Positions 5,623 through 55,776 of a DNA stretch of 64,000 bases are shown here, in pieces. The translations under genes and the position numbers were made by a program. The stretch is from positions 1,819,001 through 1,883,000 of the forward strand of contig NZ_CP090975.1 of the NCBI RefSeq assembly GCF_021513215.1. Reading direction: 5' to 3'. The notes beneath the pieces are model-generated. The model had not been told where the DNA came from. It searched no databases and saw only the letters and a program-made list of their open reading frames with translations. The DNA is from Suttonella sp. R2A3. GTDB lineage: Bacteria > Pseudomonadota > Gammaproteobacteria > Cardiobacteriales > Cardiobacteriaceae. Each line of letters opens with the position of its first letter. Position 1 is the first letter of the stretch.

Positions 5623-6888
5623 GTGAAAATGATGCGACAATGGCTTTTAGCAGCGGCGTGTGTAATGAGCCTGCCGCTGCAAGCGCAGGTGGTGGTTAAT
5701 GTGAGTGGTGCACAACGCGCCGCGCAGCCGATTGCTGTCCTGCCGTTTACAGACGATAACGGTGCAAAAATTGATTATATTATTTCCACCGACTTATATA
5801 AAAGTGGGGTGCTGCAGCCTATTGATCCCAGTTCGCTGAATATGCGGCCCAATTCGCCTCAAGAAATCGATTATGACGCGTTTCGTCAGAAAAACATCGA
5901 TTACCTGAGCTTAGGCCGCATGCAAGGCAGTCATGAGGCGCAGTTTGTATTAAGCGATGTGACTGGGCGTGAGGTGTTGCTCAATGATCGAGTTAAAGCC
6001 GATAACGACCGACAGCTCGCCCATGAAATCGCCGACCGTATTCTTGAAGAACTCACGGGTAAGCGTGGCGCATTTGCGACAAAAATCGCCTATATCTTGG
6101 AGCAAGATAAAGGCGATATTCGACGCTATAGCCTGATGGTTTCTGATATGGATGGGGCGAATCGTCGTGAGGTAGTGAGTAGTAATCAGCCCATTCTCTC
6201 GCCTACCTGGTCGCCAGATGGGCGAAATATTGCCTATATGACGTACGCTGATAACCGTTCACAGATTGTTGTACAAGATATCAGCGGTGGTTCAAAACGT
6301 GTGCTAGTGCAAAGCGATGACATCAGCTCTTCACCTGCGTTTTCTCCCGATGGCAGGTCGATCGCTTTTTCACAATCAAGCAATAATAACCCCGATATCT
6401 ATGTCATCGATTTAGCCAGTGGCAACAAAATGCGTTTAACCACGCATGCCGGGATCGATACAGAACCGGCTTTTTCACCTGATGGACGTTATGTGTATTT
6501 CACCTCGGATCGTGCAGGGCGTCCGCAAATTTATCGCATCAGTCGCAATGGCGGCGCTGCCGAGCGTGTAGTGGTTGGTAATGGATTTGCCGCCAATGGC
6601 GATATTTCACCTGATGGCAATTCGTTGGTGCTCACCCGTCAAACCGGCGGTGGTTATCAAATTGGTTTATATGATCTTGCCAGCGGGCGTTTTGAGGCGT
6701 TGACTTCAGGGCGTTTAGATGAAGGCGCAAGCTTTGCACCGAATGGCCAGATGATTGTTTATGCTACCCGAGAAGGCGGGCGTTCCGTACTGAAGATGAT
6801 TAATCACAAGGGCGGTGAAGCGTTAACCTTGGCGGATCCTGCAGGTCGTCTGCGTGATCCAGCCTGGGGCCCGGATACTCGTAATTAA
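5623..6888 (+). CDS. tolB: TolB, periplasmic beta-propeller of Tol-Pal
   Basis: 421-residue secreted protein. Signal peptide at residues 1-22 (MKMMRQWLLAAACVMSLPLQA), an N-terminal mixed domain, then WD40-like propeller blades marked by repeated SPDGR motifs (SPTWSPDGRNIAY, SPAFSPDGRSIAF, EPAFSPDGRYVYF). TolB binds Pal and TolA. GAGGAGAG lies just upstream; the GTG at 5623 or the ATG at 5629 could both be used. It follows tolA after 79 bases, a usual spacing in this cluster. Confidence 0.96.
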   Translation: MKMMRQWLLAAACVMSLPLQAQVVVNVSGAQRAAQPIAVLPFTDDNGAKIDYIISTDLYKSGVLQPIDPSSLNMRPNSPQEIDYDAFRQKNIDYLSLGRMQGSHEAQFVLSDVTGREVLLNDRVKADNDRQLAHEIADRILEELTGKRGAFATKIAYILEQDKGDIRRYSLMVSDMDGANRREVVSSNQPILSPTWSPDGRNIAYMTYADNRSQIVVQDISGGSKRVLVQSDDISSSPAFSPDGRSIAFSQSSNNNPDIYVIDLASGNKMRLTTHAGIDTEPAFSPDGRYVYFTSDRAGRPQIYRISRNGGAAERVVVGNGFAANGDISPDGNSLVLTRQTGGGYQIGLYDLASGRFEALTSGRLDEGASFAPNGQMIVYATREGGRSVLKMINHKGGEALTLADPAGRLRDPAWGPDTRN

Positions 6889-7479: not shown

Positions 7480-8076
7480 ATGATGAAGAAATTAATGATT
7501 GGACTCACCAGTACTTTGCTTATTACCGGTTGTGCGACGGGCGATATGCAAACGCAATTACAAGCCAATACGACCTTGCTACAAGATCTACAAAATCGTG
7601 TGATTACCCTGGAAACACAACAAAAAGCCATCGGTGAAAAAGTCGCTCGTGGGGGGATTAATGTGCCTACGGGTGTCACCGCCATCCCTTCCGAGCGTCG
7701 TAGCGGGGTGTACGATGATTCAGCGATTGATGGCTATGCTCCGCCACCTTCAAGCAAAGATGGGCTTGATCAAGGTGTGGAATTATACAAAGCCGGTGAT
7801 GTTGATCGTGCGATTCGTGTGTTAGAGACGTTTCAATCAAATGGACGTGGTGAGCGTGCTGTAGAAGCACGTTACTGGTTGGCTGATGCGCATTACACCC
7901 AGCGCAACTACCAAATGGCCAGTCGTTATTACGGTCAATATTTGCGTGATATGCCGCAAAGCGAGCGTGCACCGATGGTGCTAGAAAAGCTTATTGAATC
8001 GTTACGTGCCTCAGGACGCAGCGCGGATGCTGATGTGTTAGCACGCGATGGCGTGAGTGCGATTGCCGGTCAGTAA
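7480..8076 (+). CDS. cpoB: CpoB (YbgF), Tol-Pal cell division coordinator
   Basis: Periplasmic TPR protein that links Tol-Pal to peptidoglycan synthesis at division. 198 residues from the ATG at 7480 (ATG 7483 also possible); shorter than E. coli CpoB (263). Order: signal peptide with lipobox-like LITGC, a short coiled coil (QLQANTTLLQDLQNRVITLETQ), a low-complexity linker, and TPR repeats from about residue 85. The lipobox suggests a lipoprotein, while E. coli CpoB is soluble. Last gene of the tol-pal cluster; it begins 9 bases after pal. Confidence 0.9.
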   Translation: MMKKLMIGLTSTLLITGCATGDMQTQLQANTTLLQDLQNRVITLETQQKAIGEKVARGGINVPTGVTAIPSERRSGVYDDSAIDGYAPPPSSKDGLDQGVELYKAGDVDRAIRVLETFQSNGRGERAVEARYWLADAHYTQRNYQMASRYYGQYLRDMPQSERAPMVLEKLIESLRASGRSADADVLARDGVSAIAGQ

Positions 8077-8125: not shown

Positions 8126-8312
8126 TTGAACCTTACCTACAGATTTGGGATAAGTTAGTCACTGATAGTTCATGCCTTCAAAAGTCTAACCAGCTTTGAT
8201 GGCAATCAATACACTTAACGCACGTTTATTGTCGCTGGCACAGCTTGTACAGCATAATCAAATACAATAGCGTTGCCGTAGAATGATTGAATAATTACAA
8301 AGAGGAGAAGCC

Positions 8313-11300
8313 ATGAGTACGTTAAACGATAAACGCTTTAGCGAGATTGTTACTCTAGCCGGGAAATTTGTTTCAGCATCACAACAAGATGCCTTAAATG
8401 CCTTTGCGCGTGCGTATCTCACCCAATTGCCCGCTGATGAAGCAGAGCAAATGAGCGATGCGGATTTGGCCGGCAATTTGCTTACGCATTTTACGCTGCT
8501 TCAGCGTTATGATGGTCAGGCGCCACAGGTGCGTGTGTTTAATCCCACCGTTGAGGAAGATCATTTCCACACCCCGCATACCGTGATTGAGTTGGTGATG
8601 CGTGATCGCCCATTTTTAGTCGATACCTTGCAAATGTGCTTGGAGGCAGAAGGGCTGGTGATGCATCGCTTGCTTCATACCATCGTTGAATTAACCCGTG
8701 ATGACGCCGGTGAGATTCAGGATGTTGATATCGCCCACAGCAGTGATGCCCGCTACCTATCGGTGATTTATTGTGAGGTCGATCGCCAGGAAGAGAGAGC
8801 CGAGCAAACGCAAATCAAAACCGCATTGTTAGAACAAATTCAGTTGCTTGATAAGGTCACCGACGATTGGCAGCCGATGCAGTCGCAGCTTTCAAAGGTG
8901 CGTGATGAATTGGCTGCTGCAAATCTGCCAGGTTGTCCGTTTAGTCAAGATGAAATGGTCGCGTTTGTCGATTGGATGTTGGATGGTAATTTTACCTTCC
9001 TCGGTTTCCGTGAATACCGCATAACACAAGGTAAAGACGACGTTGAGCTACATGTGGTTGGCGGTACCGGCTTGGGGATGCTCGATGGGGTTGATGAAGA
9101 CCGTCCGTCAAAGAGCTTTGCTGAGCTGCCATCTAATCTCAAAGCGATGGTGCTCGAACCACAGGGTCTATTACTCTCAAAATCGAGCCACCTGTCAACG
9201 ATTCACCGCAAAGCGTATATGGATTTCTTAGGCATCCAACGCTTTGATGCTGATGGTAATGTGATTGGTGAATACCGCTTTATCGGGCTTTTGACCGCTT
9301 CGGCGTATCAGTTATCGGTGGATCATATTCCTTTGTTACGCGAAAAAGCCAACCAGGTATTGGATCGTGCGGAACTCCCGGAAAATGGCCATGCGTATAA
9401 AAAAATGCTGCATATTTTAAATACGCTACCGCGTGATGATCTCTTTCAAGCGACCATTGATGAGCTCTATCCGATGGCAATGGGTATCCTGCATTTGCAA
9501 GATAAAAAGCGCCTGCGTTTATTTACGCGTGTTGACCATTATCAGCGCTTTGTGTCATGTCTGGTTTATGTGCCACGTGAGAAATTTAATACTGCGCTGC
9601 GCGTTAAAATTCAAAATATTTTGCTTGAGGCTTTTGGTGGGGCGTCGTGTGAATTTAACACCCAATTTAACGATATCCATCATGCGCGTTTGCATGTGCA
9701 TGTGCGTACCACGCCGGGCAAAATTAAATCATTTGATCGTGCGGCGTTAGAAAAGCAGTTAATCATGGCGATGCGTGATTGGCGTGATAATTATGAGCGG
9801 GGAGTGATTGAATCGCTTGGCGAAGTGGAAGGTAAGCGCTTATTGCAGCGCTTTAGCGACGGTATCCCGGCGGCTTATCGTGATATCTACTCAACGCGTA
9901 CCGCGATTCATGACACCAAACGCTTAGCAGCGCTCAATGAAACGCAAAACCTAGATATCTATCTCTATCAATCAGCCGGTGAGCGCAGCGATCAGCTGCA
10001 TCTAAAGCTTTATGGGATTAACGAGCCAAGCATGCTCTCGCAGGTTCTGCCGATGCTGGAGAATTTTGGTGTGGCGGTATCGAATGCCCATCCGTTTTCA
10101 TTTAAAACCGGCGATGGCGGCTCGCTGTGGATGCAAGAATACGATTTGGTGTTGCGTCAAGCACAAGCGGTAGATATGCAAGTCGTTCGTGAGCAATTTG
10201 AAGAAGGCTTCCATCGCGTTTGGCGCGGATCGGTTGAAAGTGATCGCTTTAATGAACTGGTGTTGACCACCGAATTAGATGTCGATGATGTGGTGGTATT
10301 ACGTGCCTTATCGCGCTATATGTTGCAGGCGCGAGCACCATTCTCTGCTGAATACGTGCAACAAACGCTCAATCAAAACCCGGATATCGCGGTAGCGTTG
10401 ATCGGACTGTTCCACACACGGATGGATCCTAAGAAGGATGATGGTCGTGATAAGGCGGTTGCGGCGCAGCGTGCAGACATTGAAGCACAACTACAACAGG
10501 TCAGCAGTCTTGATGAAGACCGCATTCTGCGTTGGTTCTTAAACCTGATTAACGCAATGCTGCGTACAAACTTCTATCAGCGTGATGAAAACGGCGCGCG
10601 TAAAGACCGCCTGTCGTTCAAATTTGCTGCTTCTGAAATCGAAGATCTACCAAAACCACGGCCGATGTTTGAGATCTTTGTCTATTCTCCACGCGTTGAA
10701 GCCGTGCATCTTCGTGGTGGTAAAGTCGCTCGTGGTGGTCTGCGCTGGTCGGATCGTATGGAAGACTTCCGTACCGAAATCTTAGGCCTAGTTAAGGCAC
10801 AGATGGTGAAAAATGCGGTGATTGTACCGGTTGGTTCAAAAGGTGGGTTCATCGTTAAAACGCCAACTGAAGGGCGTGACGCGTTTATGGAAGAAGGGAA
10901 GGCATGTTATCGCACCTTTATTCGCGGTATGCTCGATATCACCGATAACCTGGTTGAAGGCAAAGTTGTGCCACCAGCGGATACGGTGCGCCATGACGAA
11001 GATGATCCGTATTTGGTGGTCGCGGCGGATAAAGGCACCGCGAGCTTCTCGGATATTGCCAATGGCGTGGCAGCAGAATACGGCTTCTGGCTGGATGACG
11101 CCTTTGCTTCTGGTGGTTCAGTGGGCTATGACCATAAAGCGATGGGCATTACTGCCCGCGGCGCTTGGGAATCGGTAAAACGCCACTTCCGTATGCTGGG
11201 TAAAGATATCCAGGAACGCGATGAGATTAATGTGGTCGGTATTGGCGATATGAGCGGCGACGTGTTTGGTAACGGCATGTTGCGCTCACGCAAAATCCGC

Positions 11301-51384: not shown

Positions 51385-51693
51385 CTATTCGTTTGTATGT
51401 TTGTGTCTTAATGTGCACGCTTTCGTCAAGGTGAAGTCGGGTATAGGCACCAGCCTATCATCAATACTTTCGCTGTCCATGATACGGATATTTTTATAAG
51501 CAAAGTCTAAGTGCAAAATCCGCAGTGTGAGTAACTCTTGTAAGCACGACAGGTATACGCTCTCGTTGTTTTTTCTGAGTGCTCGGATGTTTGCATCTTT
51601 CATGGATATGCCGAGTACGTCATTGTACAAAAACATAATGGCGTTAAATGCTTGGTTTTGTGTGGTTGCTGCCATGTTTTGTTTGTTCTTCAA
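51385..51693 (-). pseudogene. Integron integrase (intI) remnant A, with internal deletion
   Basis: 102-codon frame on the minus strand. TTQNQAFNAIMFLYNDVLG matches the N-terminal SAM-like domain of IntI (IntI1: THRQALAALLFFYGKVL), and LLTLRILHLDFAYKNIRIMD matches the later IntI segment [20 protein letters not shown]. The part between, with the first catalytic Arg, is missing, as are the first 80 or so residues and the C-terminus with the active Tyr. Clearly dead. Its broken 5' end is 20-30 bases from the first cassette gene, which points the other way, the normal intI/cassette layout. Confidence 0.75.
51590..51685. repeat. 96-bp direct repeat in intI fragment, copy A
   Basis: Same 96 bases as 52915-53010 with 7 mismatches by eye (about 93% identity). 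Codes for the same IntI segment in both places. Confidence 0.85.
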
Positions 51694-51710
51694 TAAAGTA
51701 AGGAGTAGCT

Positions 51711-52067: not shown

Positions 52068-52490
52068 ATGAATAAAACTATATCGATAGCAATAATCTCT
52101 GCTGTTGTAGCTATATCAGGTTGTGCGCCCCAGGGGTATTCAGGCAAAGGAGGAATGACACAATATTCTATTACATCTGAAGCATATGAATATCATTACA
52201 AAAATGGCTTTACAGGGGTAGACGCTATGGGTTGGGATGCTAATTTGCAGTATGTGTGGTCAAGAGCTGGTGCAGCCATTACTTGTGGTATTAAATTTGA
52301 CAAAAAGCTAGTTCTTTCACAGATGACCAAAATGTATGGGCAAAGCGATTTTATACATGAACTAAATGGTGTTGATTTTCATCATTTGCAAAGCAAGAAA
52401 GCTGAGGGCTTTTGTACCCCTTCAAGAATTAATGAAATTAAAGATGTTATGCCTAAATTCGAGAAAGGCGATTTTCCTAAATATTTCTAA
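52068..52490 (+). CDS. Integron cassette 2: hypothetical lipoprotein
   Basis: 140 residues. Lipoprotein signal MNKTISIAIISAVVAISGC with lipobox ISGC, then a polar domain rich in aromatic residues and three more cysteines or so (AAITCGIKFDKKL, EGFCTPSRI). An AGGAGAAGT site precedes the ATG, which is 22 bases after the attC site 1 core. The stop codon TAA is part of the first core of attC site 2, as is usual in cassettes. No family recognised; secreted cargo is common in chromosomal integrons. Confidence 0.75.
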   Translation: MNKTISIAIISAVVAISGCAPQGYSGKGGMTQYSITSEAYEYHYKNGFTGVDAMGWDANLQYVWSRAGAAITCGIKFDKKLVLSQMTKMYGQSDFIHELNGVDFHHLQSKKAEGFCTPSRINEIKDVMPKFEKGDFPKYF

Positions 52491-52568
52491 CAAGGCCAAC
52501 GACAATCGCCCAGCAAAAATCTGCTGGGCTGGATTCGCTAACGCTCGCCTGTGTTGGCAGCGTTAGCT
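52485..52568 (+). repeat. attC recombination site 2
   Basis: Cores TTCTAAC and GTTAGCT; 3 bases in on each side GCCAAC pairs with GTTGGC; an inner hairpin GCCCAGCA / TGCTGGGC follows; the right arm is longer and holds GCTAACGCT facing AGCGTTAGC. 84 bases. This is the classical attC layout. Confidence 0.8.
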
Positions 52569-52633: not shown

Positions 52634-52885
52634 CTAACCATTAAAAAGCTCTTCCTGCCATATTTTAAAATCTTCGAGATCATAAAAATATTCGTCATCA
52701 CTCACCATTAAATCTACTGCGCCTAGATTTTGTATAATTTCCCAAGCTGTTTTATTGGTAACTCTAACAAAGTCATCATCAATAATTGAAATAGCCCAAG
52801 CGGAAATAGATTCACGTGACTCTTTCCTATCTATAAGCATCTGTATTATTTCATTAATATATTCTGAAGATGGTAAACAAGCCAT
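52634..52885 (-). CDS. Hypothetical 83-residue acidic protein
   Basis: Minus-strand gene opposite to the cassettes. AGGAGATGATTGC precedes its ATG. The product is acidic with aromatic residues (AISIIDDDFVRVTNKTAWEI, then DLMVSDDEYFYDLEDFKIW); no signal peptide or helix. It begins where the intI remnant B is cut off, so it, or the piece carrying it, replaced the 3' end of that intI. Family not recognised; small acidic proteins here may be immunity proteins or antitoxins. Confidence 0.6.
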   Translation of the reverse strand: MACLPSSEYINEIIQMLIDRKESRESISAWAISIIDDDFVRVTNKTAWEIIQNLGAVDLMVSDDEYFYDLEDFKIWQEELFNG

Positions 52886-52889
52886 GCAA

Positions 52890-53182
52890 TCATCTCCTCT
52901 CAGTATGGTTTCTGTTTGCTTCTTTCATGGATATGCCGAGTATGTCATTGTACAAAAACATAATGGCGTTAAGCGCTTGATTTTGTGTGGTTGCTGCCAT
53001 GCTTTGCTTGGCTAAACTTGTCAGAAAAGCTTCTATTTCTGGTTTGCCCATGTCTTTGGGATGCTTCTTGTTATGAAAAAGTACATAATGATAAATCCAA
53101 TGTGCATAGGTTTTTTCTGTGTTGATGCTATAGTGTTTGACACGTATTTTATCTTTGACTTGTTCAAAGAGTTTTTTGCCAT
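52890..53182 (-). pseudogene. Integron integrase (intI) remnant B, N-terminal domain only
   Basis: From ATG 53182 the frame needs one extra A in a run of six (53172-53177) to read MAKKLFEQVKDKIRVKHYSI, then YAHWIYHYVLFHNKKHP, EIEAFLTSLA and TTQNQALNAIMFLYNDILG, aligning residue for residue with the N-terminal SAM-like domain of IntI1 (RIRYLHYSLRTEQAYVHWV...FHGVRHP...VEAFLSWLA). Homology stops near 52911 and a TGA follows at 52890. The catalytic domain is absent. The R-M cassette lies on the other side of its start, as expected for intI-attI-cassette. Confidence 0.8.
52915..53010. repeat. 96-bp direct repeat in intI fragment, copy B
   Basis: Partner of 51590-51685; 7 mismatches by eye. The divergence shows that the two copies have been separate for some time. 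Confidence 0.85.
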
Positions 53183-53292
53183 ATATACTTTATTACACCA
53201 ATATTTTGTGGTAAGCCTTAACTTTTATACTCTTATATCACATAAACGATATATAAAAATTTTTATTCTGCTTGTTTAGATATAATATTTAT

Positions 53293-53322
53293 TTGATATA
53301 AAATACTATTGGTGTATATAAT
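53293..53322 (+). promoter_or_regulatory. Candidate promoter of the restriction-modification genes
   Basis: TTGATA and TATAAT 18 bases apart with TG before the -10 box, about 49 bases before the endonuclease start, in the AT-rich stretch that should hold the attI site. Confidence 0.5.
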
Positions 53323-53370
53323 AAATTGTGAGCTCCTCAGATCGAATACCAAATTAACTTAGGAAGTATT

Positions 53371-54162
53371 TTGAAAGTTGAAAAACTAAACAAAAAGGAA
53401 CTTGATGAATATTGCACATCATTGGGTATCGATATCAAGAAGAAGAAAAAGTCAGAGCTTATTGATGCTGTATATGCTCATGAAAGAGAAATAATTAATC
53501 AAGCAATCGCCAATGACGATTGCTTGGCTCTACTCAAAGAAAAGATATGCAAGCTTGCAGACGAATATGCTGGAAACTTAAAAAGTAAAATTGTTGCACG
53601 AAAAGAAGAAATGAAAGGCGATGACAACTCTCATTACCTTATATACCGAGTTTTAGGAATTCCTCATGATGAAGGTGTTTTGATTGATGAATATCAGAAT
53701 ACAGGTCGTTTTCTCTATAAGTATGCTGGGTCTTTCCTGGAAGAGGCAGCAACTTTATGTATGTTCTTCTCAAACAGTCAGGGTGGTAAGACACTGGTTG
53801 AAAACACCATTGGAACCAAGCCAAAGACATTCGAAATAGACTTCCTCAATGGGAATGATGCGGTCGAATTGAAGTGGCGAGATGCAACAACTGATGGAGA
53901 TCACATCACTAAAGAGCATACCAGAGTTAAAGCGATTAAATCTCATGGTTATAAGCCAGTTCGGGTGATGTTTTACTATCCTCAAAGAGAGCAGGCAATT
54001 AAAATTCAGGAAACACTAAAAACCATCTACGCAGGAGTAGATGGTGAGTACTATGCAGGTGATGAAGCTTGGGATTACTTAAAAGCTGTTAGTGGGTACG
54101 ACCTAAAAGCAATTTTGGTTGAAATTGCAAATAAACGAGACCAAGAAGTAACTAATGATTAA
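53371..54162 (+). CDS. ApaLI-like type II restriction endonuclease
   Basis: 263 residues. Start is a TTG at 53371 with TAGGAAG seven bases upstream; no ATG gives the N-terminal part. A Lys-rich N-terminus is followed by a domain with FEIDFLNGNDAVELKWRD, a likely PD-(D/E)xK catalytic strand (E..D then ELK), and GDHITKEHTRVKAIKSHGY, FYYPQREQAIKIQETL, which I recognise from ApaLI (site GTGCAC). It overlaps the methyltransferase by 8 bases, so the pair is coupled. Site specificity is inferred from family resemblance only. Confidence 0.8.
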   Translation: MKVEKLNKKELDEYCTSLGIDIKKKKKSELIDAVYAHEREIINQAIANDDCLALLKEKICKLADEYAGNLKSKIVARKEEMKGDDNSHYLIYRVLGIPHDEGVLIDEYQNTGRFLYKYAGSFLEEAATLCMFFSNSQGGKTLVENTIGTKPKTFEIDFLNGNDAVELKWRDATTDGDHITKEHTRVKAIKSHGYKPVRVMFYYPQREQAIKIQETLKTIYAGVDGEYYAGDEAWDYLKAVSGYDLKAILVEIANKRDQEVTND

Positions 54163-55342
54163 TACAATTCTCAACGGTGACTGCTTAGATGAAATGAGAT
54201 CTATAGAGGAAAGCTCTATAGATCTCATTTATCTTGACCCACCGTTTTTTACAGAAAGAAAACATACCTTAATGAATCGTGAGCGAACCAAAGAGTTTAG
54301 TTTCGACGATAGCTGGGGAAGCGACAAGGGCTATGCTGAGTTTTTAAAAGAGCGCATTGAAATAATGCACTCCTTGCTAAAAGATACAGGTTCAATATTT
54401 GTGCATTGCGATAAGAGCGGTGAGCATATAGTTCGAGCTATTTTAGATCAGGTCTTTGGGGTAACCAACTTCCAGTCAGAAATTATTTGGACATACAAAA
54501 GATGGTCAAACTCGAAAAAAGGTCTTTTGCCAAGCCATCAAAATATCTATTTTTACTCGAAAACAAAAAACTTTAAGTTTAATACGATTTATACATCCTA
54601 CTCAGAAACAACCAATATCGATCAGATTCTTCAACGACGCACTAGGGATGAGCATAACAAATCTGTTTATGACAAAGATAGTTTTGGGAACGTCAAGAAT
54701 GGCGATAAGAAAAAAGGAGTTCCACTGAATGATGTTTGGGATATTCCTTATTTGAACCCGAAAGCAAAAGAGAGAGTCGGTTATCCAACTCAAAAGCCAT
54801 TATTGCTTTTACAGCAAATTATCAAATTAGTTACTGAGGATGGCGATCTTGTTTTAGATCCCTTTTGTGGGAGTGGAACTACCTGTGTTGCGTCAAAACT
54901 CTTAAATCGAAACTATATAGGTATAGATGAGTCAATCGATGCTGTCGAGCTCAGCAATGAGCGCTTAGAAAACCCGATAAAAACTGAGTCCAACCTCTTA
55001 AAAAAGGGTAGAAATTCATATGTTAATGCTGACTCTTCTGCTTTAAATCTTTTGAAGGGAATTGAATTTAACGCAGTTCAGAGAAATAAAGGAATAGATG
55101 CAATTCTCGTAGAGCAATACGAGAACTCTCCTATTTTGGTGCGAGTCCAAAAGCCTAACGAAACTTTAGAAGAGGCTGCCTCTTTACTATCAAAAGCTAT
55201 GAAAACTAAGAAATCAAAACGTTCTATCTTGATTAAAACGTCATTAAACGAAGATCTATTCGAAACTGACATAGATATAAAAGGTCTGGAAGTTATTCTT
55301 TCACCAGCCCTACAGATAGCAGGTATCGTAAAAAAGAGCTAA
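54155..55342 (+). CDS. DNA N4/N6 methyltransferase, class beta, partner of the ApaLI-like endonuclease
   Basis: 395 residues. Motif IV DLIYLDPPFF is near the N-terminus and motif I LVLDPFCGSGTTCVASKLL near residue 235, the beta-class order of amino-methyltransferases; TQKPLLLLQQII precedes motif I. A C-terminal extension of about 120 residues (from residue 275) may help recognise the site. It should protect the endonuclease's site. A 17-base perfect inverted repeat lies in codons 13-26. The stop TAA is part of the attC core GCTAAC, so the R-M pair is the cargo of an integron cassette. Confidence 0.9.
   Translation: MINTILNGDCLDEMRSIEESSIDLIYLDPPFFTERKHTLMNRERTKEFSFDDSWGSDKGYAEFLKERIEIMHSLLKDTGSIFVHCDKSGEHIVRAILDQVFGVTNFQSEIIWTYKRWSNSKKGLLPSHQNIYFYSKTKNFKFNTIYTSYSETTNIDQILQRRTRDEHNKSVYDKDSFGNVKNGDKKKGVPLNDVWDIPYLNPKAKERVGYPTQKPLLLLQQIIKLVTEDGDLVLDPFCGSGTTCVASKLLNRNYIGIDESIDAVELSNERLENPIKTESNLLKKGRNSYVNADSSALNLLKGIEFNAVQRNKGIDAILVEQYENSPILVRVQKPNETLEEAASLLSKAMKTKKSKRSILIKTSLNEDLFETDIDIKGLEVILSPALQIAGIVKKS
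54192..54230 (+). repeat. 17-bp perfect inverted repeat inside the methyltransferase gene
   Basis: AAATGAGATCTATAGAG, a 5-base loop GAAAG, and the exact complement. It starts 37 bases after the ATG and lies fully in coding sequence. In RNA it forms a strong hairpin; in DNA it is an operator-like palindrome. Confidence 0.9.
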
Positions 55343-55396
55343 CAAGTCAAAGCACTCGGACGCAGCAAAGCTGCGCCGGTGTTTGAGGTGTTATGA
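55338..55396 (+). repeat. attC recombination site 3, after the R-M genes
   Basis: Cores GCTAAC and GTTATGA; TCAAA pairs with TTTGA, CAC with GTG, CGG with CCG, CGCAGC with GCTGCG around an AAA loop. The left arm has three unpaired bases (G, T, A) that split the helix, as in functional attC sites, where extrahelical bases steer the integrase to one strand. Confidence 0.8.
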
Positions 55397-55776
55397 GTGT
55401 ACAAGATAGAAATGAAGGAAGAGTAGATACCAATACCTGTGCCAGCATGGTAGCCGCATAATTAAATGCAAAAGGACAAAAAAAGTGAACCATTTACAGA
55501 GTCTAAGGCTCTTAAAATTTAAGATAATGCTACCTGCATCATAACGCCTGCCAGTGTTGCTGCTACTATGGCCAAATCAAGAGATTACGCAGATATTGAT
55601 CCAGGATATGTGTGATAACTATAGCAAGAGCTTAGGATTGAACTTCATAAATAAATTGCGTTTATTGTCACTCATTGCTCCCCATATTGGATAGCAATGA
55701 TAATCTGCCATTAGTTTGATTTTGGTGCTTCCTGAAGGATTTGTTCCTGCAATAAATCCATTATTCCCTGCTGTTA
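55397..55776. other. Gene-free AT-rich stretch between the integron and glpK
   Basis: 380 bases with only short broken frames, the longest readable piece being about 20 codons (TPASVAATMAKSRDYADID) without a start signal. No attC, inverted repeat or IS end is clear. It is probably decayed cassette or phage-like DNA marking the right edge of the accessory region. Confidence 0.4.

Follow-up and report, generated by a model that had tools for sequence, protein, structure and literature searches.

The integron remnants of Suttonella sp. R2A3 are followed by two overlapping genes that encode a predicted restriction endonuclease (hereafter R) and a DNA methyltransferase (M). This arrangement raises the question of whether the pair is an intact type II restriction-modification (R-M) system that reached its present location as an integron gene cassette. 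The analysis covers a 64,000-nucleotide stretch of this genome, hereafter the window, and all positions are given in its numbering (Table 1). Judging by sequence features, the overlapping R and M genes comprise a single cassette that is bounded by a left recombination junction and a right-hand attC site and is located after a decayed integrase gene (intI). We consider it very probable that an intact R-M system was captured as a gene cassette, that the integrase decayed later, and that the system is now a resident of the genome.

Table 1. Features of the R-M cassette and its surroundings in the window
Feature	Position	Strand	Basis
intI remnant A, residues ~49-96 with a short later fragment	51439-51705	-	profile and comparison
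attC of the upstream cassette, which carries a 140-aa lipoprotein-like ORF (52068-52490)	52485-52568	+	attC scan and fold
intI remnant B, first ~88 residues (N-terminal)	52911-53180	-	profile and protein comparison
Promoter-like TTGATA-N18-TATAAT (11 of 12)	53293-53322	+	consensus match only
Left recombination junction GTGAGCT (degenerate GTTAGCT)	53328-53334	+	alignment with relatives
R-M gene cassette, 2062 bp	53329-55390	+	left edge by alignment of relatives, right edge at attC
ApaLI-family type II restriction endonuclease (R), 263 aa	53371-54162	+	Pfam, PADLOC, predicted structure, alignment
Beta-class amino-methyltransferase (M), 395 aa, probably m6A	54155-55342	+	Pfam, PADLOC, motif order, PDB profile matches
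Perfect 17-bp inverted repeat with 5-nt loop, in the M coding sequence	54192-54230	+	repeat search, folding, codon simulation
attC of the R-M cassette, 60 bases, holds the M stop codon	55337-55396	+	folding and arm-pairing scans

The restriction-modification gene pair

The initial annotation described an ApaLI-like endonuclease gene that overlaps a methyltransferase gene by 8 bases. The coordinates of the two open reading frames confirm the overlap, and the assignment of the endonuclease, for which similarity to ApaLI-type enzymes had been named as a check, is upheld by a highly significant match to the Pfam family RE_ApaLI (PF09499; E=2.3e-85, 285.5 bits, cut-off 25). The match extends over residues 55-240 of R and positions 2-187 of the 189 positions of the profile, so that R shares the full domain of the family, a placement made through the Pfam profile rather than through the sequence of ApaLI itself. 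PADLOC labels R as a type II REase. The PD-(D/E)XK core corresponds to E155-I-D157..E166-x-K168; in an alignment of 34 sequences, E155, E166 and K168 are invariant and D157 is present in at least 90%, and all four residues are present in R of the window. A search of the PDB by sequence yielded no relative of R. At the level of predicted structure (pLDDT 89, pTM 0.85), the nearest solved structure is that of the PD-(D/E)XK restriction enzyme EcoO109I (Z 9.4, rmsd 4.5, 195 residues aligned; Foldseek E 5e-3). The first ~50 residues of R appear to be an added SAP-like N-terminal part (SAP-like over residues 1-38, approximately), which most of the Bacteroidota relatives lack; SAP matches were obtained for 8 of 34 R relatives (best 5e-5) and, at E<=1, none for R of the window itself.

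The methyltransferase matches the Pfam family N6_N4_Mtase (E=7.3e-56) and is labelled by PADLOC as a type II MTase (PDLC03339, 580 bits). The DPPF motif (motif IV, residues 28-31) precedes the target domain and DPFCGSGT (residues 235-242) follows it, which is the beta-class order (PMC2890505). The closest PDB matches in profile searches are the adenine methyltransferases CcrM and M.MboIIA (6pbd, 1g60), which have the same motif order and the same DPPF and DPFCGSGT motifs; M differs from them in belonging to a separate subfamily, which is encoded beside ApaLI-type nucleases, directly after R, in 50 of the 55 loci examined. Given the motif order and the closeness to adenine methyltransferases, M is likely to produce m6A.

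The R gene starts with a TTG codon that is preceded by AGGAAG and is aligned with the ATG start of relatives. In the comparison with relatives that have open frames, dN for R and M is 0.08-0.23 whereas dS is >3 or saturated; because dN is far below dS, both genes have been retained under selection.

Cassette boundaries and the attC site

The M stop codon, TAA, is located inside AGCTAACAA, the R'' box of the attC site, and the earlier observation that the methyltransferase gene ends within the first core of an attC thus holds. The two outer boxes are R'' AGCTAAC (55337-55343) and R' GTTATGA (55390-55396). In the single-strand fold of the bottom strand (-17.1 kcal/mol), the R box is paired, the spacer is unpaired, the tip has 3 nt and the L box contains extrahelical bases. 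When the 64 kb were scanned for TAAC..GTTA combinations whose arms pair, this site scored 15 and was the only one at >=12, whereas the expectation from first-order Markov shuffles of the window is ~0.03 sites per 64 kb at >=15. The fold and the score accordingly support the description of the site as a well-formed attC, for which structural scoring had been proposed as the check. A second scan recovered this site together with the attC of the neighboring cassette. The site escaped the strict consensus scan (RYYYAAC/GTTRRRY, one mismatch), as its R' box, GTTATGA, departs from GTTRRRY, but was detected in the pairing-based scans. Comparison of the attC with Rfam gave no useful match.

On the left side, the junction GTGAGCT departs by one substitution from GTTAGCT, with which it is aligned in relatives, and can be classified as a G/TTRRRY-type left junction with this one change. 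Seven relatives (loci L004, L005, L006, L007, L013, L044 and L054) have GTTAGCT, GTTAACT or GTTAGTT at the left edge, and in L008 the edge is GATTAGCT; the distance of the edge from the start codon ranges from -41 to -71. With its limits set at the base following the G/TT-type junction and at the G in the R' box of the attC, the cassette proper is shifted relative to the extent originally proposed, 53371-55397, which does contain the pair and the attC.

Relatives of the pair in other bacteria

Relatives of R are encoded on 50 genome contigs from Gammaproteobacteria, Desulfobacterota, Campylobacterota, Bacteroidota and others, the well-covered ones being ~57-87% identical. The search for the same cassette in other integrons, suggested with the initial annotation, was successful in particular for the methanotrophic gill symbiont of Bathymodiolus brooksi (L007), where the pair is flanked by full attC sites at 5843-5933 and 7971-8062 on a contig that contains additional attC sites. 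The location between two attC sites shows that the R-M pair travels as a cassette. The L007 pair (R 78% and M 75% identical to the window proteins) shares the 8-base overlap, the GTTAGCT edge and the right-hand attC; it differs in the greater length of its array, where several attC sites and additional R-M-like genes are present, and in that M reads through into the attC. The further R-M-like genes beside the ApaLI cassette (L007:569-1720 and 8147-9012) comprise one for a C5 methyltransferase and one for a possible endonuclease. An attC-like sequence also follows M in L009 and L012. The pair is also present in a few copies on viral contigs.

Not all copies are found in such a context: several adjoin no attC, and the Psychrobacter copy (L054) is carried by a 6-kb plasmid outside a clear cassette. 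These copies would fit the arrival of a solitary R-M unit from a plasmid or a phage, with an attC that is coincidental or belongs to another element. We regard this scenario as highly improbable given that the M stop codon sits in the attC, that both edges match those of relatives, including the Psychrobacter copy with GTTAGCT at -41, and that the L007 pair lies between two attC sites. Capture as a cassette therefore remains the preferred explanation.

R-M systems in chromosomal integron cassettes are already on record (PMC4176335, PMC9892861, PMC12444791), and integrons are enriched in defence genes and commonly carry COG0863 methylases (PMC7370490). Considering this enrichment and the recurrence of the same cassette in several lineages, the initial characterization of such cassettes as rare was too strong; as integrons were already known to carry restriction enzymes, the present cassette serves as a good example and is not surprising. 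As in the published chromosomal-integron cassettes, the R-M genes are followed by an attC and the array is located beside intI. In contrast to those cases, the enzyme is of the ApaLI type, the array has been reduced to a small number of cassettes, and intI survives as two remnants, with no functional integrase.

Integrase remnants and the region upstream of the cassette

Remnant B matches positions 2-88 of the integrase model (1.7e-25) and shares 58% identity with an annotated integron integrase; it has no in-frame start codon and ends before the catalytic domain. Remnant A contains an internal deletion and is devoid of the catalytic tyrosine region. No intact intI above the cut-off was detected in the genome, which yielded only these two truncated remnants; the functional intI of a complete integron is thus missing. 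Both the proposed position of the pair, directly after remnant B, and the proposed decay of the integrase agree with these observations. Decay of the integrase would have left the cassette fixed in the chromosome.

The two remnants share 98 bases with 93% identity (51588-51685 and 52913-53010), suggesting that two integrons were once present here or that a duplication occurred. A cassette stands in place of the N-terminal part of remnant A. Among the genomes examined, intI remnants were found in none of 11 from the same family and a PF09499 gene in none of the 39 from relatives; within this set, the array is peculiar to this lineage.

The promoter-like site ends six bases before the cassette edge (53328), which is the place expected for an integron cassette promoter. 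The AT-rich stretch between remnant B and the cassette (53187-53325) is single-copy in the genome and has inverted ends, CACCAATA and TATTGGTG, ~105 bases apart. Between the upstream attC and remnant B, an 83-aa ORF without a family match (52634-52885, minus strand) may be a reversed cassette gene.

Under the proposed course of events, an integrase would have recombined a circular cassette into the attI site, and the pair would be transcribed from a Pc-type promoter just outside the cassette edge. R would cleave unmodified DNA at the ApaLI-type sequence GTGCAC, and the beta-class M would protect the host DNA, the modified site probably being GTGC(m6A)C. Decay of the integrase would have followed, leaving an ordinary resident R-M system.

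Target site and activity

GTGCAC as the target of R is suggested by the family name only; for the product of M, the natural conjecture would be GTGC(m6A)C. M.ApaLI, on which our literature searches found nothing, is probably a C5-cytosine enzyme. If so, the ApaLI-type nuclease is paired here with another class of methyltransferase, the partner of R in the window being, by family match and motifs, a beta-class amino-methyltransferase.

GTGCAC is not depleted in Suttonella sp. R2A3, with 111 occurrences against 113.5 expected in sampled stretches of the genome that total 464 kb. The ratio is 0.75 in a genome of the same genus that does not have the R-M system, so that there is no contrast in the direction expected from avoidance. 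A frequency at expectation leaves no trace of long exposure to R, and methylation would hide one.

This lack of depletion would also be compatible with a cassette that is silent or inactive, either through poor expression or because one of the enzymes has no activity, as would the decay seen in relatives, namely the R stop codon and M frameshift in L004 and, in Thiomargarita (L012:6001-10994), the D157Y replacement in the R active site along with an M gene split by about 3 kb. Inactivity nevertheless seems unlikely for the window, where the frames are intact, every invariant residue is present, dN is low and a sequence that matches the promoter consensus is found upstream.

Palindrome within the methyltransferase gene

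The perfect inverted repeat near the 5' end of M has counterparts with paired changes at the corresponding position of L004 (18 bp) and L006 (14 bp), and a different 13-bp palindrome is found a few codons earlier in L078 and L079. The predicted RNA fold has -27.5 kcal/mol in the window and -36.7 kcal/mol in L004. Codon choice alone gives 10.5 of the 17 pairs, and none of 3000 draws reached the 17 of the window with Watson-Crick pairs; L004 likewise has 17 pairs (p 0.001 in codon-choice draws). L049 and L012 are also enriched in pairs, and most other relatives are not.

A hairpin in M conserved throughout the family was considered and rejected. The covariation over 17 sequences is weak, with the observed score reached in 20 of 500 shuffles and the observed count of doubly changed pairs in 84 of 500, and the roughly 10 of 17 pairs that come from codon choice further undercut this hypothesis. 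Template switching that perfected an older, imperfect palindrome accounts for the repeat without invoking function. It appears quite improbable that selection maintains the palindrome as an RNA or DNA hairpin which balances M against R on entry into a new host and so replaces a control protein.

Implications for the integron

Both post-segregational killing by R-M systems and the stabilization of superintegrons have been proposed in the literature (PMC3874152, PMC4176335). Along these lines, the R-M cassette might have acted as an addiction module and thus be the reason why the array outlived the decay of the integrase, which would fit the intact state of R and M next to two ruined intI copies. 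Simple retention for phage defence fits the single available genome of this species equally well, and we consider the addiction scenario rather doubtful.

The ApaLI-type R-M cassette, common to distant bacteria, joins the defence genes that are moved by integrons, and in Suttonella sp. R2A3 it presents a clear case of a cassette that stayed intact while the integrase decayed. If active, this cassette could be used to test the stabilization of arrays by R-M systems.
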